From the NCBI RefSeq assembly GCF_013318015.2, contig NZ_CP115841.1, positions 1,116,001 to 1,180,000 on the forward strand: a stretch of DNA of 64,000 nucleotides. Direction: 5' to 3'. Below the pieces are notes generated by a model. It ran no database searches, was not told the origin of the DNA, and saw nothing but the letters and a program-made list of their open reading frames with translations. Both the position numbers and the translations under genes were made by a program. This DNA is from Agrobacterium tumefaciens (lineage in GTDB: Bacteria > Pseudomonadota > Alphaproteobacteria > Rhizobiales > Rhizobiaceae). Every line of letters starts with the position of its first letter. Positions within the stretch are counted from its first letter, which is position 1. This document shows positions 1-7,463 of this stretch, one piece after another.

Positions 1-419
1 CATGTGTTTCGGATTGCGTGGCGGCTTGCCATTAAGCCTTCGTCGCATGCAGATAGTCGAACGTGTTCTCCGATCCGGCAAAGCGAAGATGCAAGAGCTT
101 GCCGCAGCGTCTCCTTGGCGACAGAGATCCGGTGCAACTCGATCAGCTTCTCCCGCGCCAGCGTCGGGCCGAAATCCAGATAGCGTTCGCGGATCAGATC
201 CAGCGCCGCATTGCGAAACTCCTCGCTGTGGCGCCGATTGCTTGGCCGCGCTCGCTTCTTCGAAACCAGACCGGCCGCACCAGAGTGGTCATAGGCCTGC
301 AGCAGCCTGTGCACCTGACTTCGGCTGAGGCCAAGCAGTTCAGCGGCCTGGACGACGCACAGGCGCTGATCACGGATCTTCTGAATAACTTCGAGGCGAT
401 GCAATTCTTTCTGCGACAT
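1..419 (-). pseudogene. Broken IS1202-like transposase fragment with internal deletion
   Basis: From ATG at 419 the minus strand reads MSQKELHRLEVIQKI, a helix-turn-helix stretch (LLGLSRSQVHRLL), then ERYLDFGPTLAREKL and SVAKETLRQ. These align closely with the first 120 residues of the intact transposase at 726-2099. At about 103 the homology jumps. In another frame, GKLLHLRFAGSENTFDYL (103 down to about 50) matches the intact protein's GKLMQLRF region about 60 residues further on, and a TAA follows at 34-32. The sequence between, including the first catalytic Asp, is missing. This is an internal deletion with frameshift, so the gene is dead. The original frame itself stays open to the window edge. 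Confidence 0.75.
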
Positions 420-579
420 GGTGATCAAACAGGACATGACGACTCCGACCGCACATGGTCTCGACCAGGTTGATGGTCGTCATCCTTGCTCCCAACGTTG
501 GCATTGACCAGAACATCGAGAGGCGAGACTGTCGCATCTCTAACTGGCCCAACTGTCGCATTACTAAATAGCCGCTACA
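1..579 (-). mobile_element. Remnant of an IS1202-like insertion sequence (truncated by the window edge)
   Basis: Read on the minus strand, this begins at 579 with TGTAGC, as the neighbouring complete element does. It then carries two copies of a GCGACAGT-type repeat (around 530-562) in the place where IS1202-family ends have doubled subterminal repeats. A transposase N-terminus follows from 419 downward. The gene is broken (separate entry) and the other end lies outside the window. Its outer end abuts the ATACGA sequence that is the target duplication of the next element, so both elements used essentially the same target beside the dif-like site. Family assignment rests on similarity to the adjacent intact transposase. 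Confidence 0.65.
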
Positions 580-584
580 TACGA
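579..584. repeat. Left target-site duplication, ATACGA
   Basis: This six-base direct repeat immediately precedes the TGT terminus at 585 and is repeated exactly at 2185-2190, just after the other terminus. Confidence 0.75.
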
Positions 585-634
585 TGTGGCGGGAGAGTTG
601 AAATGTCCGCCGGTTTGCAAAGTAGAAATGTCCG
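585..634 (+). repeat. Left inverted repeat of the IS1202-family element
   Basis: TGTGGCGGGAGAGTTGAAA starts the element and AAATGTCC occurs twice (about 598-606 and 624-632). The second copy is preceded by GCAAAGTAG. The layout matches the opposite end read in reverse. Confidence 0.75.
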
Positions 635-725
635 ATCAGCCCCGATCTGAGCGGCTGATCCCGATTGCAAGATCAGATCGGGGCTGGTGGTAAACACACC
701 TCTTCGGCTTTAGCGTTGAGACGCC

Positions 726-2099
726 TCACTCAGCAGCCTGCTGCCGCGACAGCGCCTTCTTTCGCCGCGAAATTACAGCCGGATCGTTGGTGAAGTCTTT
801 GCGGCGACCGGGTCCACGAACGCGTTTGACATAACCATTCTTGTCGCTGTTGCTCTTCACCTCAGGTTTTGCCTGCGCGTCCTGGCGTTCTTTGATATAG
901 GCCAAAACATCGCCGAGCCGCTTGTTCTCGGTGATCGCCGCATGCGTCACCCGCTGATCCTTGGCAAACACCGTGTAGGGCAGGTAATGCCCTTTCCAGC
1001 GCACATCCATTCGGCCATCGGCATAGGCGTAGGTCTCGACATATTTGCCAACAAGGCCACGCGTGACGTCGCTTTCTTCCAGCATGATCCGCTGTCGCTC
1101 ATAGGAAAATGTCAGCTGCGATCCGACATAACGCTGTTCTCGCTTGCAGAGGATCTCTTTCAATCGATCCGACGCCAGGTTCATCGGTCGATGCAAATCC
1201 TCGGATCGGGCAGGGCAAACCGCAAAACGGGCGTTGTAGTCCTCCATAAAGCCGGGCAAAAAAGCATTGCCAGCCTCCATGCTGTCGATGCCAGCCAACC
1301 GCAATTCCTTGACCAGACGGTCCTGAAGCGTCCGGTTCATCCGCTCAACGCGACCTTTGGCCTGGCTCGAATTTGCACAGAGAATTTCTATATTTAGCTC
1401 GCAAAGCGCTCGCCCGAACTGCGTCATGCCCTGACCACCTCTGGCATCCTTCTTTGCCACCCGAAACACCGAATGTTTGTCGGAATAAAAGGCAATCGGC
1501 GCGCCGTGGCACTGGAGATAGAGCTCCAATGCCTCGAAGTAAGTGAAGGCACTTTCGGACCGCACAAAGCGCAATTGCATCAGCTTGCCGGTCGCGTCAT
1601 CAACGAACACCAGCAGTGAGCAGGGTGGTCCGCGATCCTCAAACCAACGATGCTTCGACCCATCAATCTGCACCAGTTCGCCATAGGCCTCGCGTCGCAA
1701 CCGTGGCCGATGAAACGTCCGGCGCTGCTTGCGCGACAGCCAAATGCCAGCATCGACCATCCAGTTGCGCACCGTCTCGCGCGACACAGACAAGCCATCG
1801 CGCTCAGCCAGCTTCTCCGTCGCCAATGTCGGCCCAAAATCCGCATAACGTTCCCGAACCAGCGCCACCGCATAATCACGAACCCCGTCACTGATCCGGT
1901 TGTTGGACGGCCGGCCGATCGCCTTGTGCCGGATCGACGCAGCGCCGCCACTCCGTATTCGGTCCAGCAGCCGACGCACCTGGCGCTCACTCAGATCAAG
2001 AACATGCGCCGCAGACACCGTCGTCATCCGCCCGGAAACAACCTTCGACAAAACCTCGATCCGCTGCAGATCGCGCTCGCTCATCGCTATCAATCCCAT
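726..2099 (-). CDS. IS1202-family DDE transposase
   Basis: An intact transposase of about 457 residues. The N-terminus has a helix-turn-helix (LDLSERQVRRLLDRI), followed by a second winged-helix-like region (FGPTLATEKL, SVSRETVRNW). An RNase H-fold catalytic core carries the DDE triad: Asp in QIDGSKHRW (about residue 146), Asp in FYSDKHSVFR (about 207) and Glu in KGRVERMNRTL (about 252). The C-terminus is basic. Start 2099 was chosen because GGGAG sits about 8 bases upstream; ATG 2084 (MSERDLQRIE) or an earlier codon at 2120 are alternatives. It is the only gene of the element and would act on the doubled repeats at both ends. No frameshift or stop was seen, so it is probably active. Confidence 0.9.
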   Translation of the reverse strand: MGLIAMSERDLQRIEVLSKVVSGRMTTVSAAHVLDLSERQVRRLLDRIRSGGAASIRHKAIGRPSNNRISDGVRDYAVALVRERYADFGPTLATEKLAERDGLSVSRETVRNWMVDAGIWLSRKQRRTFHRPRLRREAYGELVQIDGSKHRWFEDRGPPCSLLVFVDDATGKLMQLRFVRSESAFTYFEALELYLQCHGAPIAFYSDKHSVFRVAKKDARGGQGMTQFGRALCELNIEILCANSSQAKGRVERMNRTLQDRLVKELRLAGIDSMEAGNAFLPGFMEDYNARFAVCPARSEDLHRPMNLASDRLKEILCKREQRYVGSQLTFSYERQRIMLEESDVTRGLVGKYVETYAYADGRMDVRWKGHYLPYTVFAKDQRVTHAAITENKRLGDVLAYIKERQDAQAKPEVKSNSDKNGYVKRVRGPGRRKDFTNDPAVISRRKKALSRQQAAE

Positions 2100-2136
2100 C
2101 TGCAATCTCCCAGATGCCAATCAGACCCGGGGAGTG

Positions 2137-2184
2137 TGACATTCCAACTTTGCAGAAACAGGACACTTTAACTTTGCGGCTACA
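2137..2184 (-). repeat. Right inverted repeat of the IS1202-family element
   Basis: Read inward from 2184: TGTAGCCGCAAAGTTAAAG, then TGTCC, then GCAAAGTTGGAATGTCA. It matches the left end in the TGT tip, the AGTT(A/G)AA(A/G)TGTCC block and the second GCAAAGT...AATGTC block, with several mismatches. Confidence 0.75.
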
Positions 2185-2190
2185 ATACGA
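2185..2190. repeat. Right target-site duplication, ATACGA
   Basis: An exact copy of 579-584 directly after the element, lying between the element and the XerC-type arm. Confidence 0.75.
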
Positions 2191-2218
2191 TAATCGCATA
2201 AGATAGATTATGGAACTT
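2191..2218 (+). other. dif: Putative dif site (XerC/XerD chromosome dimer resolution site)
   Basis: This has the 11-6-11 architecture of bacterial dif. The left arm TAATCGCATAA (2191-2201) contains the conserved XerC core CGCATAA. A six-base centre GATAGA follows (2202-2207). The right arm TTATGGAACTT (2208-2218) contains the XerD core TTATG. In Escherichia coli the same cores flank TGTATA. Two IS1202-family elements, a family known to target dif/pdif, end beside its XerC side, which supports the call independently. If correct, the window lies at the replication terminus. Octamers of the FtsK-orienting KOPS type (GGGNAGGG) seen by eye also point toward it from both sides. No xer gene is in the window, as expected for a chromosomal dif. 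Confidence 0.8.
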
Positions 2219-2734: not shown

Positions 2735-3631
2735 CTAAGGCGTTTTCCAGGTCTTCAACAGCATTTCCACGAATTTCTCCGCGGCGGGAGATAAGGCGCT
2801 GCTTCTTCTTTGCACGATACCGATGGTTCGGGAGACCACGGGATTAACGATCGGCCGCGTAACGAGGAAAGGATGGTCATCCTGTGGGGTAGCCAGTCGC
2901 GGCAACACGGAAATCCCCAACCCAGCCTCCACCAGGCCAAGCGACGTATTGAGATGGGTCACCTCGTAGAACCAGTTCAGCTTTAGATTGTGCCGCGCGA
3001 GTGCGCCATCCAGAAGCGTTCTATTGCCGCTGGAGCGATCGACGACAACCAGCGGGTAAGGCTCCAGTTGATTCCATTGGATCGTTTCGAAAGCCGCCAG
3101 AGGATGGTCTTTCCGCATCGCCAGCACAAATGGGTCATCGATGAGAGGTTCGAATGCCAGGTCTGGATCAGAATTACCCATGAGGTTTATCCCGAACTCC
3201 ACCTCGCCCCGCGCAACCGCCTGCAGCCCCTCGTTTGCCGTAAGGTCTCTGATACGCAGCCTAATATGCGGATATTGCTTGCTAAATGTTTTGATCACGG
3301 TGGGTAGAAAATAAAACGCTGCGGTTGGAACGCAGGCCATCGTGATGAGGCCGCGCCGATGTGCACCATCTTTCATCGCAAAAAGCGATCCGTCGAACTC
3401 TTCCAGCATGCGCCGGACAAGCGGCATTACCTCCTGACCCATCGCTGTCGGGGCAACGTGGCGTGTGGTCCTTTCCAAGAGTGGCGCGCCAATGGCCTGT
3501 TCCAGTTTCTGGATGCGCCGGGTAAGCGCCGGTTGCGAAATATGCAACGCGTCGGCAGCCCTATGAAAACTTTCAAGCTCAACTACTGCTTGAAATGCTC
3601 TTAGATCCAGAATTTCGCAATTGATGCTCAT
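2735..3631 (-). CDS. LysR-family transcriptional regulator
   Basis: 298 residues, the usual LysR length. The winged helix-turn-helix is at residues 8-65 (SFHRAADALHISQPALTRRI, then LLERTTRHVAPTAMG). The effector-binding domain runs from about 90 to 295. It is transcribed divergently from the PrpF-like gene at 3737 with a 105-base gap, the classic arrangement for a LysR protein controlling its neighbour. It probably regulates the tautomerase and ABC importer in response to their substrate, which cannot be named from sequence. A GCTCATAT-type direct repeat covers its start codon (separate entry), suggesting autoregulation. Confidence 0.9.
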   Translation of the reverse strand: MSINCEILDLRAFQAVVELESFHRAADALHISQPALTRRIQKLEQAIGAPLLERTTRHVAPTAMGQEVMPLVRRMLEEFDGSLFAMKDGAHRRGLITMACVPTAAFYFLPTVIKTFSKQYPHIRLRIRDLTANEGLQAVARGEVEFGINLMGNSDPDLAFEPLIDDPFVLAMRKDHPLAAFETIQWNQLEPYPLVVVDRSSGNRTLLDGALARHNLKLNWFYEVTHLNTSLGLVEAGLGISVLPRLATPQDDHPFLVTRPIVNPVVSRTIGIVQRRSSALSPAAEKFVEMLLKTWKTP

Positions 3632-3695
3632 ATCGCAATAATACCTCCGAACATTGCATTTAACAGATTAGATTCTTTTGCTCATATTGCAACAA
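3626..3695. promoter_or_regulatory. Divergent promoter region with a 16-bp direct repeat, candidate LysR operator
   Basis: GCTCATATCGCAATAA (3626-3641) and GCTCATATTGCAACAA (3680-3695) match at 14 of 16 positions. They lie 54 bases apart in the space between the LysR gene and the PrpF-like gene, and the first overlaps the LysR start codon. Spaced recognition and activation sites are typical of LysR regulators, but the assignment is inference from position. Confidence 0.45.
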
Positions 3696-3736
3696 CAAGG
3701 CGGATTGATCCACCAAATGCAAGATTGAGGCGATAA

Positions 3737-4819
3737 ATGAACGACCTGCTTAAGATACCCTGTGTGCTGATGCGCGGCGGAACATCTCGTGGACCGTTCT
3801 TCCTGGCGTCTGACCTTCCGCGTAATCGAGCGGAACGGGATGCGGCACTTTTGTCCATCATGGGTTCCGGTCATCCGCTGCAGATCGACGGGATAGGAGG
3901 CGGCAATCCGGTCACCTCGAAAGTGGCGATCATAGGTCCTTCCACCGTCGAAGGCGCAGACATCGACTATCTGTTCGCACAGGTTCGTACCGACAGGCAG
4001 TATGTCGACTATTCGCCCAATTGCGGAAATATGCTGGCCGCGGTCGGTCCCTTTGCGATCGAAGCTGGACTTGTCGAGGCTCGGGGAAGCGATACCGTGG
4101 TTCGCATCCACAACGTGAACACCGGAAAATTGATCGAGGCAAAGGTGCCGACGCGTGGTCGCGAAGTAATTTATCTCGGAGACGCATCCATCGACGGCGT
4201 TCCGGGTCTGGCTGCACCGATCGCCCTGACTTTCGTGGATGCGGCGGGTGCGAAAACCGGAAAACTGTTGCCCACCGGAAACCCTGTCGACACGGTTGAG
4301 GGAATAGATGTGACGGCGATAGACTGCGCAATTCCGATGGTCCTCATGCGTGCGGGAGACCTCGGCGTCACGGGATATGAAGATCCGCAGACCCTGACTT
4401 CCAATAGCGATCTCATCGAACGATTGACCCGCATTCGCATTCAGGCAGGCAAATTGATGGGGATGGGGGATGTAACGGATATGGTCATACCAAAACCCGT
4501 GATCGTAGCGCCGGCACGCAAGGGAGGCACTCTGTCTGTCCGGTACTTCATGCCCAATGAGTGCCACCCTGCCCTGGCAACGACCGGCGCCGTTGGCATA
4601 GCAACCGCAGCGATCACGGAAGGCTCCGTGGCATTTGAACAAGCGGGAAATCGGTCTGTTCCGACCCAGATCTGCATCGAGCATCCCGCCGGTCGGCTGG
4701 ACGTGCAACTTGAGATGCGGAACGGAGCAATAACAGCCGGGCTTGTGAGAACGGCCCGCAGACTTTTCGAAGGCTTTGCCTTCGCCAAGCCAAACGCTGC
4801 GATTGAAGACGCAGCCTAG
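3737..4819 (+). CDS. PrpF-family isomerase, 4-oxalomesaconate tautomerase-like
   Basis: 360 residues, PrpF/AcnD-accessory superfamily (diaminopimelate epimerase-like fold). Family marks are LMRGGTSRGPFF near the N-terminus, the IDGIGGGNPVTSKVA loop and the CGNM motif (NYSPNCGNMLAAVGPFA; here SPNCGNM near residue 95). The closest group known to me is GalD, which interconverts keto and enol forms of 4-oxalomesaconate in gallate/protocatechuate 4,5-cleavage. Other members isomerise 2-methylaconitate or methylitaconate. GAGGCG six bases before ATG supports the start. No other aromatic ring-cleavage gene is nearby, so the substrate remains open. It is followed by an importer that may bring in the acid it isomerises. 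Confidence 0.82.
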   Translation: MNDLLKIPCVLMRGGTSRGPFFLASDLPRNRAERDAALLSIMGSGHPLQIDGIGGGNPVTSKVAIIGPSTVEGADIDYLFAQVRTDRQYVDYSPNCGNMLAAVGPFAIEAGLVEARGSDTVVRIHNVNTGKLIEAKVPTRGREVIYLGDASIDGVPGLAAPIALTFVDAAGAKTGKLLPTGNPVDTVEGIDVTAIDCAIPMVLMRAGDLGVTGYEDPQTLTSNSDLIERLTRIRIQAGKLMGMGDVTDMVIPKPVIVAPARKGGTLSVRYFMPNECHPALATTGAVGIATAAITEGSVAFEQAGNRSVPTQICIEHPAGRLDVQLEMRNGAITAGLVRTARRLFEGFAFAKPNAAIEDAA

Positions 4820-4867
4820 ACAAAGCCATACTGGCTCAAAACATAGCAAAACTGGGAGGAGACCCTC

Positions 4868-5869
4868 ATGCGTAAATACTTGCTTGCAACAGCGGCGCTC
4901 TGTGCGCTGGCAGCGTCGGCAAATGCAGAATCTGTCAGAATGAGTGTTGGTTCGTACAACCTCAACAACCTGCCTTTTCCGGTGGCGGCCAGCCTCGGCT
5001 TCTACAAGGACGAGGGCCTTGAGGTGACGACCGAGAACTTTGCCCAAGGCGGTTCGAAAGTCCTGCAGGCGCTCGTCGCAGGGTCCACGGATGTAGCCGT
5101 CGGTTTCTACGATCACACGATCCAGATGCAGTCCCAGAACAAGCACGTGGTTGGCTTCGTTCAGCTTGCCCGCAATTCCGGGCTGGTTCTCGCAGGAAAG
5201 AACGATACAGACTTCGATCCGGCAAAACCTGAAACCATCAAGGGCAAAAAGGTCGGGATCACCTCGCCCGGGTCTTCGTCCGATTTCTTCATTCGTTATT
5301 ACATGAAGCAGCACAATCTGAGCGACAACGACATCGCCATCATCGGCGTTGGCTCCGGCGCTGCTGCTGTTGCCGCTCTGCAGCAGGGCAAGATTGACCT
5401 ATTGGTCAATTACGATCCGGCTGCGACGATCGTGGTTGAGCGTGGTCTTGGCAAGATTTTGATCGATGCCCGCAGCGATCAGGGCGCCAAGGACGTCTAC
5501 GGCGGGATCTACCCCACCTCCGTCTTGTATGCGACGCAGGAATACATCGATGCACATCCCGAGGTGATCCAGAAGGTTACCAATGCCACGGTAAAGGCGC
5601 TGCATTGGATGAAGGAGCATTCGGCCGAGGAAATCGTTGCAAAGCTTCCCGATGATTTCGTGTCCGGCGACAAGCAGACCTACATCAAGGCCGTCGAAGC
5701 CGCCAAGGCGATCTTCTCCGAAGATGGAACCTTCAACCAGGCCGATCTGGAAACCCCGTTGGCGGTTTTGAAAAGCTTCAACGACGCGGTCGCGAAGGCC
5801 ACGATCGATCTCAACACGACCTACACCAACAAGTTCGTCGAGGCTGCGGCTTCGAAGGGCGTAAACTGA
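4868..5869 (+). CDS. ABC transporter periplasmic substrate-binding protein, NMT1/SsuA-TauA type
   Basis: 333 residues with a clear Sec signal peptide (MRKYLLATAALCALAASANA, cleavage about residue 20). The mature part has the NMT1/THI5-like fold, with NNLPFPVAASLGFYKDEGLEV near its start and the GKKVGITSPGSSSDFF loop in the middle. A strong GGGAGGAG ribosome site precedes ATG. This class feeds importers of sulfonates, nitrate, pyrimidines, phthalates and other small anions. The genes for the ATPase and permease follow at once, so it is the recognition subunit of a complete importer. The pairing with a PrpF-type isomerase suggests a di- or tricarboxylate or aromatic acid. Confidence 0.88.
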   Translation: MRKYLLATAALCALAASANAESVRMSVGSYNLNNLPFPVAASLGFYKDEGLEVTTENFAQGGSKVLQALVAGSTDVAVGFYDHTIQMQSQNKHVVGFVQLARNSGLVLAGKNDTDFDPAKPETIKGKKVGITSPGSSSDFFIRYYMKQHNLSDNDIAIIGVGSGAAAVAALQQGKIDLLVNYDPAATIVVERGLGKILIDARSDQGAKDVYGGIYPTSVLYATQEYIDAHPEVIQKVTNATVKALHWMKEHSAEEIVAKLPDDFVSGDKQTYIKAVEAAKAIFSEDGTFNQADLETPLAVLKSFNDAVAKATIDLNTTYTNKFVEAAASKGVN

Positions 5870-5878
5870 GGGTCTTCA

Positions 5879-6700
5879 ATGTCTTTGCCAATTAGAAAGT
5901 TAGAACCCGTGGCGGAACTCAATCTTCAGCCAATGGTGGCAATCGAGAACGTAACAATGGCCTTTGGCGCGTTCGTTGCGGTCCAGGATGTGAACCTGAA
6001 AGTTGGAGATGGTGAGTTTCTCTCGATTGTCGGCCCAACCGGATGCGGAAAGTCCACCATTCTCAATGCCATCGCGGGTTTGCTGAAACCGGCGCAGGGA
6101 AAGGTCTCCATCGATGGTTCGGCCGTGCAGGGCGTGCAGAACAACATTGGATATCTCTTCCAGCAGGATGCGCTGCTTCCCTGGAAAACGGCCTATCAGA
6201 ATGTCGAGCTTGGCTTGCTGTTCCGCGGCGTATCCGAACATGAGCGCCGTACCAAAGTTCTGGCCTGGCTGGAAAAAGTTGGCCTGAAGGGGTTTGAAGA
6301 GCGCTTTCCGCATCAACTTTCAGGCGGACAGCGCAAACGTGTCCAGATGGCGCAGGCGCTTATAACCGAGCCGAAGGTCATCCTGATGGACGAGCCCTTC
6401 TCCGCACTCGACATTCACACGCGCCACCTCATGCAGAATGAACTCCTGAGATTGTGGCAAGAGGATCGCCGTGCAGTGGTCATGATCACGCACGATCTCG
6501 AAGAGGCGATTGCACTCGGGGACCGTGTTGTCGTCCTTGCTGCCGGCCCCAAGAGCCGGGTTATCGAGAGCTTCCCGGTTGATCTGGAACGGCCCCGCAA
6601 CGTGGCCGAAATCAAGCTCGATCCGAAATTCATGACCCTATATCGCGATATATGGGCGTCTTTGCGCGGCGAAGTGGAGAAAAGCTATGCAAGCCGTTAA
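5879..6700 (+). CDS. ABC transporter ATP-binding protein, SsuB/TauB type
   Basis: 273 residues. Walker A GPTGCGKST at 52-60, Q-loop near 95 (LFQQDALLPW), signature LSGGQ at 147-151, Walker B VILMDEP at 167-173, H-loop in ITHDLEEA. The family usually covers about 250 residues; the first 18 or so here are an extra leader. It energises the importer formed with the genes on either side. Its end overlaps the permease gene by 14 bases, indicating translational coupling. Confidence 0.93.
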   Translation: MSLPIRKLEPVAELNLQPMVAIENVTMAFGAFVAVQDVNLKVGDGEFLSIVGPTGCGKSTILNAIAGLLKPAQGKVSIDGSAVQGVQNNIGYLFQQDALLPWKTAYQNVELGLLFRGVSEHERRTKVLAWLEKVGLKGFEERFPHQLSGGQRKRVQMAQALITEPKVILMDEPFSALDIHTRHLMQNELLRLWQEDRRAVVMITHDLEEAIALGDRVVVLAAGPKSRVIESFPVDLERPRNVAEIKLDPKFMTLYRDIWASLRGEVEKSYASR

Positions 6701-7463
6701 TGTTCGCATCATCCAGATCGTGCTTCTGGTCGTGCTTCTGGGTGGGTGGCAACTCGGGGTAAGCTCCGGGGCGATCGACCGCTTCTTCTTCCCGGCACCC
6801 ATCGACATCGTCAAGCAGGTCATCACCTGGGTTGCCGATGCCGGCTTTTACAAACATGTCGGTATCACCTTGAGTGAAACGGTTCTCGGTTACCTCATCG
6901 GTACAGGTCTCGGCGTCGGCGCCGGTGTCTGGCTGGGCCTCAGTCCCTTTGTGGCCCGTGTGTTGGATCCGTTCATCAAGGCCGTGAATGCCATCCCGCG
7001 TGTGGTCCTCGCGCCAATTTTCGTCCTTTGGCTGGGGCTTGGCCTCTGGTCAAAGGTCGCTCTTGCGGTCACCCTCGTCTTCTTCGTGACGTTCTTCAAC
7101 GCCATGCAAGGTGTTCGCGAAGTGAACCCCGTCGTGCTTTCCAACACGCGCATTCTCGGTGCAAAGCGCTCTGATCTCTTGCGTCATGTTTATTTTCCGG
7201 CGGCAGCCAGCTGGATTCTGTCGTCGCTGCGCACATCCGTCGGATTTGCGGTGGTTGGCGCGATCATCGGCGAATATCTCGGGTCTTCCGCAGGCCTCGG
7301 TTACCTGATCGCCCGTTCTGAAGGTAACTTCGACGCGGTCGGCGTTTTCGCCGGTATCATCATTCTCGCCATTTTTGTTCTCGTCATCGATCTCATTCTC
7401 GATGTCGCCGAAAGAAAGCTGATCACCTGGAGGCCGAACGCGGGCGAAGAACGGCCTGCTTGA
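6687..7463 (+). CDS. ABC transporter permease, SsuC/TauC type
   Basis: 258 residues with about six hydrophobic segments and the binding-protein-dependent transport signature region (GAKRSDLLRHVYFPAAASWI) that contacts the ATPase. It starts inside the end of the ATPase gene and ends shortly before an intrinsic terminator, so it closes the operon 3737-7463. Inner membrane protein; one gene implies a homodimeric pore. Confidence 0.92.
   Translation: MQAVNVRIIQIVLLVVLLGGWQLGVSSGAIDRFFFPAPIDIVKQVITWVADAGFYKHVGITLSETVLGYLIGTGLGVGAGVWLGLSPFVARVLDPFIKAVNAIPRVVLAPIFVLWLGLGLWSKVALAVTLVFFVTFFNAMQGVREVNPVVLSNTRILGAKRSDLLRHVYFPAAASWILSSLRTSVGFAVVGAIIGEYLGSSAGLGYLIARSEGNFDAVGVFAGIIILAIFVLVIDLILDVAERKLITWRPNAGEERPA

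Follow-up and report, generated by a model that had tools for sequence, protein, structure and literature searches.

Evidence for a chromosomal dif site at the replication terminus of Agrobacterium tumefaciens, and for dif sites as a landing place of two insertion sequence families

The window analysed here is a stretch of 64,000 nucleotides from Agrobacterium tumefaciens (C1:1116001-1180000), and near its left end two insertion sequences are stacked against a 28-bp sequence that resembles dif. Two questions are raised by this locus: whether the sequence is the dimer resolution site of the chromosome, or a plasmid-type site or motif borne by the insertion sequences, and how such elements come to be found at this place. 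The genome comprises 6.0 Mb in six contigs: C1 (2,804,325), C2 (2,137,456), C3 (632,660), C4 (164,530), C5 (57,127) and C6 (206,366). The 2.8 Mb chromosome, the 2.1 Mb second replicon and a protelomerase-like gene on C1 (Pfam PF16684, 137.1 bits, a model that also matches 1 of 14 control genomes, Synechococcus) fit Agrobacterium with a putative linear chromid.

Table 1. Features of the locus and the related sites on C3 (window positions unless a contig is given)
Feature	Position	Strand	Remarks
Older IS1202-family element, dif-side part	1..579	-	Whole element C1:1114937-1116579, 1643 bp, starting outside the window
Target duplication ATACGA, left copy	579..584		First base doubles as last base of the older element
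Newer IS1202-family element	585..2184	-	1600 bp, intact, TGT/ACA ends; dif-proximal end ..TTTGCGGCTACA
Transposase of the newer element	726..2120	-	464 aa, start codon on the dif side; NCBIfam NF033594 ISNCY, 494.2 bits (cut-off 250)
Last plus-strand KOPS before dif	1208..1215	+	Inside the newer element; preceding one at C1:1115788
Target duplication ATACGA, right copy	2185..2190		Between newer element and XerC arm
dif (very probable)	2191..2218	+	28 bp, TAATCGCATAA-GATAGA-TTATGGAACTT; XerC arm left, XerD arm right; C1:1,118,191-1,118,218
XerC arm TAATCGCATAA	2191..2201	+	Identical arm in the C3 site at 580 kb
Six-base core GATAGA	2202..2207	+	Found in 25/39 genus genomes; both C3 sites have other cores
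XerD arm TTATGGAACTT	2208..2218	+	Same arm adjoins ISRel10 in Table 8 of PMC10132070 (available part)
First minus-strand KOPS after dif	4567..4574	-	12 more on the minus strand up to window 57055
C3 dif-like site, 580 kb	C3:580176	+	Core CATATA; 632 kb replicon
C3 dif-like site, 89 kb	C3:89106	-	Core GCATAT; 632 kb replicon

Window positions 2191-2218 are almost certainly the chromosome dimer resolution site (dif), and the terminus, of the 2.80 Mb C1. The layout is 11-6-11 with inner ATAA and TTAT, as in a chromosomal dif, and the 28-mer occurs once in the window, where ATAA-N6-TTAT alone is present exactly twice (2198 and 57458). A sequence-only reading of the locus had placed a dif of two arms and a six-base centre at 2185-2218 and called it the single chromosomal one. 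The 28-bp site itself stands, whereas its first six bases, ATACGA, have to be given to the target duplication of an insertion sequence; "single" is correct for C1 and not for the whole genome, C3 having two more sites. In the 6.0 Mb the pattern GCATAA-N6-TTATGGAAC is matched exactly at three places, C1:1118196 and the two sites on C3, all other matches having at least 2 mismatches, and the pattern search gave no better dif-like site on C1. The looser TAA-N6-TTATGGAAC finds the same three sites exactly, followed by C1:567979 and C2:1582314 at one mismatch, and in the whole-genome search neither pattern has an exact match on C2, C4, C5 or C6. A still looser pattern, CGYATAA-N6-TTATG with 2 mismatches, was abandoned because it has fewer matches (178 forward, 167 reverse) than its reversed control (234 and 231). 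The C2 candidate CGGATAACATATATTATG (C2:296641), one mismatch away from this loose pattern, was discarded: its XerD arm is without GGAAC, and the stricter patterns give on C2 at best 2 mismatches, or one mismatch at another place.

The KOPS (FtsK-orienting) motif for Agrobacterium, GGGNAGGG, was taken from the available part of PMC12153318. Over the contiguous 135 kb of C1:1045001-1180000 all 14 motifs to the left of dif are on the plus strand (1,049,448 to 1,117,208, one of them within an IS1202-family element) and all 13 to the right are on the minus strand (1,120,567 to 1,173,055), dif being inside the 3.4 kb gap between both runs. A few motifs in the wider samples of C1 do not follow this polarity, as at 1.87 Mb, where 2 plus and 2 minus were counted. 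GC skew falls from +0.011 (C1:1100001-1116000) to -0.004 (1116001-1132000) and is distinctly negative farther on; among the C1 samples, those reaching from 2.50 Mb over the contig start to 1.116 Mb have positive or near-zero values, and those from 1.116 to 2.50 Mb negative ones. Within the 135 kb cumulative G-C peaks locally at 1,115,500, some 2.7 kb away from dif, and has a shoulder near 1,129,500; the position of dif is thus not fixed by skew alone. The terminus that had been proposed from the site is supported by both signals, KOPS polarity flipping at dif and the skew turning within a few kb of it.

The skew of C1 returns to positive between 2.48 and 2.52 Mb, and the lowest cumulative G-C in the range 2.38-2.55 Mb is at 2,493,001, amid parS-like sites (2,484,479-2,505,556). 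KOPS polarity on this side switches earlier, near 2.42 Mb and not at 2.49 Mb, and the origin is therefore placed by skew and parS only. The dif site is opposite this skew-based origin, with replication arms of 1.375 and 1.429 Mb.

An exact dif site was identified in 39/39 genus genomes searched (reversed pattern, 0) and in 241/296 family genomes from 93/99 genera (reversed pattern, one match in one genome). The XerD match is at C2:893923 with 329.9 bits, 0.3 bits above the cut-off of 329.6, the model matching all 14 control genomes and exceeding the cut-off in 4. A second XerC/D-like match, C1:2261069 (246.5 bits, below the XerD-model cut-off), is probably XerC. Genes with an FtsK gamma domain are two, C1:2411272 and C2:423016; the best XerD match is on the second replicon and the FtsK genes are split between C1 and C2. 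On the other side of dif, window 2735-7463 comprises a LysR regulator, a 4-oxalomesaconate tautomerase and an ABC transporter (names from plasmid records), a block with 82% identity to one of a Rhizobium daejeonense plasmid and with matches to Agrobacterium vaccinii and Shinella plasmids.

The intact IS1202-family element that had been described as ending six bases from the XerC arm was found as described. Its ends are TGTGGCGG and GGCTACA, and a second binding site is present near each of them: a repeat at 596-609 and 621-634 on the left, TTTGCAG and TTTGCGG on the right (by eye). Together with the TGT..ACA ends and the transposase, these are the characters of an IS1202/ISNCY-type element. 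Two further full copies, C3:578566-580165 and C2:133820-135419, each differ from it by one base, which is the same in both. At the C1 and C2 copies the duplication measures 6 bp, at the C3 copy 5 bp, the norm of the group being 3-5 bp at about 5 bp from the XerC arm. The older element has transposase matches in two pieces in different frames, the C-terminal one at 38.5 bits to NF033594 (below cut-off), and TACGA on both sides; the two elements are more distantly related members of the IS1202 family. A same-species genome (G034) has the same dif in flanks approximately 98% identical and is without the newer element, the older end ..GCCGCTACA-TACGA being directly before TAATCGCATAA; the older element there is incomplete, with stretches of about 264 and 402 bp missing, the first including the far end. 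By this comparison the newer element went in between dif and the older one, and the elements stand in their order of arrival. CTACA-TACGA is found again left of the older element (C1:1114927-1114936), possibly the scar of a still older insertion.

The sites on the other replicons are also adjoined by such elements. On C3 the sister copy adjoins the 580 kb site with the duplication TACGA, and a 75% relative of the newer element adjoins the 89 kb site. Sampled pieces of C3 contain 43 plus and 11 minus KOPS from 40 to 583 kb and 0 plus and 5 minus after 585 kb, by which the switch is at least 2.6 kb past the 580 kb site and less clean than on C1; the 89 kb site has no more than a local cluster of minus KOPS at 90-92 kb. 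The C2 copy, on a replicon without strict dif match, is followed after the six-base duplication TCCGCA by a half site where TTCTGGAAC keeps the register, a hint that an element of the newer type can be attracted by the XerD-side motif alone. Sites of one genome shared a core in 0 of 48 pairs from 25 multi-site genus genomes, with 6.18 expected from a shuffle that ignores relatedness, and in 0 of 85 pairs in the family (27 genomes among the matches listed, 8.24 expected). Since the shuffle ignores relatedness and a counter-example exists (G256, GACAGA on two contigs), distinct cores are a tendency only. TCTATC, the most frequent second core, reads as GATAGA on the opposite strand and was identified in 7/39 genus genomes, 5 of them with GATAGA too.

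A scan of named genomes with the IS1202 transposase gave 62 loci, with the start present in 61 and a recognisable element end in 45. At 36 of these 45 ends TTATGGAAC (up to 2 mismatches) is in register, 33 at 5 and 3 at 6 bases before the XerC arm, where chance would give 0.0013 for one register. Of the nine exceptions, four continue into another IS1202-type end, an identical pair has TTATGAGAT in register, two have weaker dif-like sequences and one is near a contig end. Of the 16 unrecognised ends 11 were tested for IS30, with one in the locus in 7 (L134, L147, L149, L156, L174, L176 and L184) and none in 4. No dif-like site was found at the far end of the element in any of 41 copies. In 33 distinct targets, chosen for at most 2 mismatches in TTATGGAAC, the outer XerC arm varies while TAA and TTATGGAAC are kept. 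TACA is present 10-11 bases before GCATAA at 105 sites in 71/296 genomes (reversed control, 0). Its use as a proxy of IS1202 occupancy was dropped, as only 10 of 40 TACA-bearing sites have an IS1202 transposase start within 400 bp, in a set of 76 distinct dif loci partly chosen for TACA and with some contigs ending before 400 bp; it is not an occupancy count because scars, and tips interrupted by IS30 elements, account for many of these sites. In four draft genomes (G017, G024, G171 and G302) two dif-bearing contigs each start equally far before dif, as expected if one repeated insertion sequence at both sites breaks the assembly.

To the left of the C3 sister copy at C3:580176 is an element of the IS30 family, unrelated to IS1202, whose transposase matches NCBIfam NF033563 IS30 (284.7 bits, cut-off 80) and Pfam HTH_38 and rve. 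The IS30 family makes target duplications of 2-3 bp; in this clade duplications of 3 bp were read by eye in L247 (GCT), L254 (CCG) and L149 (CGG), and are not clear in L264 and the C3 copy. A search of 247 family genomes with the C3 transposase gave matches at E up to 1e-40 in 42, returned as 30 loci: 24 evaluable (start present, at least 43% identity), 4 without start, 1 at a contig end and 1 below 43% identity and without dif-like site. Seventeen of the 24 have TAA-N6-TTATG, with 12-15 bases from the element end to the XerC arm; in five, the query included, an IS1202-type end precedes, and two have neither (Ns in one, a partial site in the other). On plasmids, in 16 copies among the matches listed (40 of 500 matching records), 12 are at dif-like sites, 3 behind an IS1202-type end and 1 at a partial site. 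Those 12 include Sinorhizobium meliloti 2011 pSymA and, outside Rhizobiaceae, records of Pseudosulfitobacter, Leisingera, Phaeobacter, Antarctobacter and Labrenzia. The Roseobacteraceae plasmid targets keep TAA-N6-TTATG with a different outer XerD arm (TTATGTAAT, TTATGTTAA and others).

The control comprised 13 loci: 11 distant IS30 copies (34-39% identity), where TAA-N6-TTATG near the transposase start was found in none, and two copies above 43%, both with the motif. The end motif of the IS30 clade was drawn by eye from the flanks and this control is independent of it. With all loci pooled, a count biased by loci found through dif, 55 copies have at least 43% identity: 39 dif-like (1, 22, 15 and 1 at 12, 13, 14 and 15 bases), 13 behind an IS1202-type end and 3 with neither. 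In the same pooled loci 1/13 copies below 43% was also counted dif-like, and a dif-like site on the other side of the element was found in 0/60 copies. The scatter between 13 and 14 bases is partly due to an end read as CC or CCC. A reading of the end as ..CTACA was rejected, wider flank comparison giving ..ACC, with CTACA being the IS1202 tip. Genome G007, whose dif has the C58 sequence and lies no more than 20 bases from the C58 position, carries an element of this clade at the chromosomal dif.

Mobile elements have repeatedly landed immediately outside the XerC arm, their transposase start towards dif, with IS1202-family elements mostly at 5 bp from that arm and the IS30 clade mostly at 13-14 bp. 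By established knowledge XerC and XerD would bind the two arms and FtsK would activate XerD, so that one exchange across the GATAGA core would turn a dimer into two monomers. Each transposase may find the site through XerC/XerD on dif or through the shared inner motif TAA-N6-TTATG. Such addressing would provide a transposase with a safe address on circular replicons, and successive IS1202 insertions would land between dif and the previous element, giving a stack with the youngest nearest dif. XerC/XerD on dif are the simplest common factor of both families, the main alternative being a shared reading of TAA-N6-TTATG; a contact of the transposases with XerC/XerD is proposed with less assurance than the dif and terminus. 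On balance we favour dif as a general landing address for unrelated transposases, the alphaproteobacterial IS30 clade having independently evolved a habit like that of IS1202, at about 13 rather than 5 bp and with the same orientation; docking on the Xer complex is the probable means.

That the site on C1 could be a plasmid-type pdif or a motif borne by insertion sequences, the true dif being elsewhere on C1, was considered because IS1202-family elements also adjoin such sites on plasmids, C3 of the same genome has two of them and looser patterns give one-mismatch matches elsewhere on C1. This is highly improbable: GCATAA-N6-TTATGGAAC has no other exact or one-mismatch match on C1, KOPS converge at the site, its arms are those of the published C58 chromosomal dif (PMC2731167, in the part available), and the same-species genome has it without the newer element. 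Moreover, 35 of the 76 distinct dif loci, a set biased towards TACA and with worn IS remains in some, have neither an in-register TACA tip nor an IS1202 transposase start within 400 bp.

For the IS30 clade, an insertion into IS1202 tips that happen to adjoin dif, with no seeking of dif, is unlikely as the general account. In L149, L184 and L248 the copy interrupts an IS1202 end, leaving TTTGCGG and CGGCTACA on opposite sides, and beyond 13 of the 55 pooled copies of at least 43% identity there is a tip and then, after a short stretch, a second IS1202-type end; because CTACA, the IS1202 tip, fills the gap to dif in many copies, part of the pattern could arise in this way. At least 4 copies are at the same distance without a tip (by eye: L247, L264, L273 and, in Pseudosulfitobacter, L284), and the element of L247 is bordered by GCT on each side, with no remnant of IS1202 in the flank displayed; these four are not explained by tip insertion, which accounts for part of the cases only. 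Further, either a dif-like site or another IS1202-type end lies beyond 37 of the 40 evaluable copies (24 from the family, 16 from plasmids), the exceptions being L258 (Ns), L272 and L285 (partial site). A closer competitor, to which we give somewhat less than an even chance, is that both families read the bare TAA-N6-TTATG themselves, without XerC or XerD. It agrees with the C2 copy at the half site TCATCCGGCAA TCGTGG TTCTGGAACAG, which keeps the register and has a poor XerC arm, and with the IS1202-clade targets that vary in the outer XerC arm and keep TAA and TTATGGAAC. Against it, Roseobacteraceae IS30 targets have another outer XerD arm, and TTATGTAAT is that of the Rhodobacter sphaeroides chromosome 2 dif in the available part of PMC2731167; this fits elements following the Xer site of their host, and is not decisive.

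The dif of C1 is in itself ordinary, and its surroundings bear on rhizobial IS1202 targets that were left doubtful in PMC10132070, as far as the part available goes. Where IS1202-family elements occur in rhizobia, the adjoining sites resemble genuine dif with an XerD arm of alphaproteobacterial type, TTATGGAAC, rather than decayed pdif. Of wider interest is that a second transposase family, unrelated to the first, addresses dif precisely: two families with one target and different transposases allow asking what they have in common, most simply the Xer proteins. If true, this would explain the frequent insertion sequence copies at one spot on rhizobial plasmids and chromosomes with the 28 bp intact; circular replicons with dif would offer the same safe place, and the adjoining stack would record the order of arrival.

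Targeting of dif by the IS1202 family is already published in PMC10132070, whose available part describes the targets of ISRel10, ISRel26 and ISMex6 as resembling pdif very loosely and leaves undecided whether they are degenerate or follow another consensus. These three share with the newer element the IS1202-type transposase, the TGT/ACA ends, the short duplication and the XerC side. The ISRel10 targets end in TTATGGAACTT, here the arm of a chromosomal dif at a terminus, and by the present data the targets of all three appear to follow the alphaproteobacterial dif consensus. For IS30 elements no mention of dif targeting was found in the open-access literature, PMC12907356 and PMC6053426 mentioning IS30 in other connections in the parts available. 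The clade has the transposase of the IS30 family in common with other members and is distinguished by its single orientation and its distance of 12-15 bp to the XerC arm.

A chromosomal dif of this kind is already known, C58 having the same arms. In the available part of PMC2731167, Table 1 gives TAATCGCATAAGATATATTATGGAACTT for the C58 circular chromosome at 1,478,815, dif is on only one of the two C58 chromosomes, the core GATAGA is that of the Mesorhizobium loti and Brucella melitensis chromosome I dif, and species with multiple chromosomes have distinct dif cores on them. The prediction of PMC3025954, as given in its available part, failed for C58. With the C58, M. loti and B. melitensis chromosome I sites the dif described here shares the 28-bp 11-6-11 layout, its arms being those of C58 and its core that of the latter two, and all three are listed as intergenic and near the skew shift, like the present site. 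It differs in being flanked by two stacked IS1202-family elements, insertions going unmentioned for the sites in the available part of PMC2731167. The other known system is the KOPS-dif-XerCD of Agrobacterium in PMC12153318, where, in the part available, XerC and XerD are essential in strains with fused chromosomes, whereas C1 and C2 are separate contigs here; in both, GGGNAGGG converges on dif.
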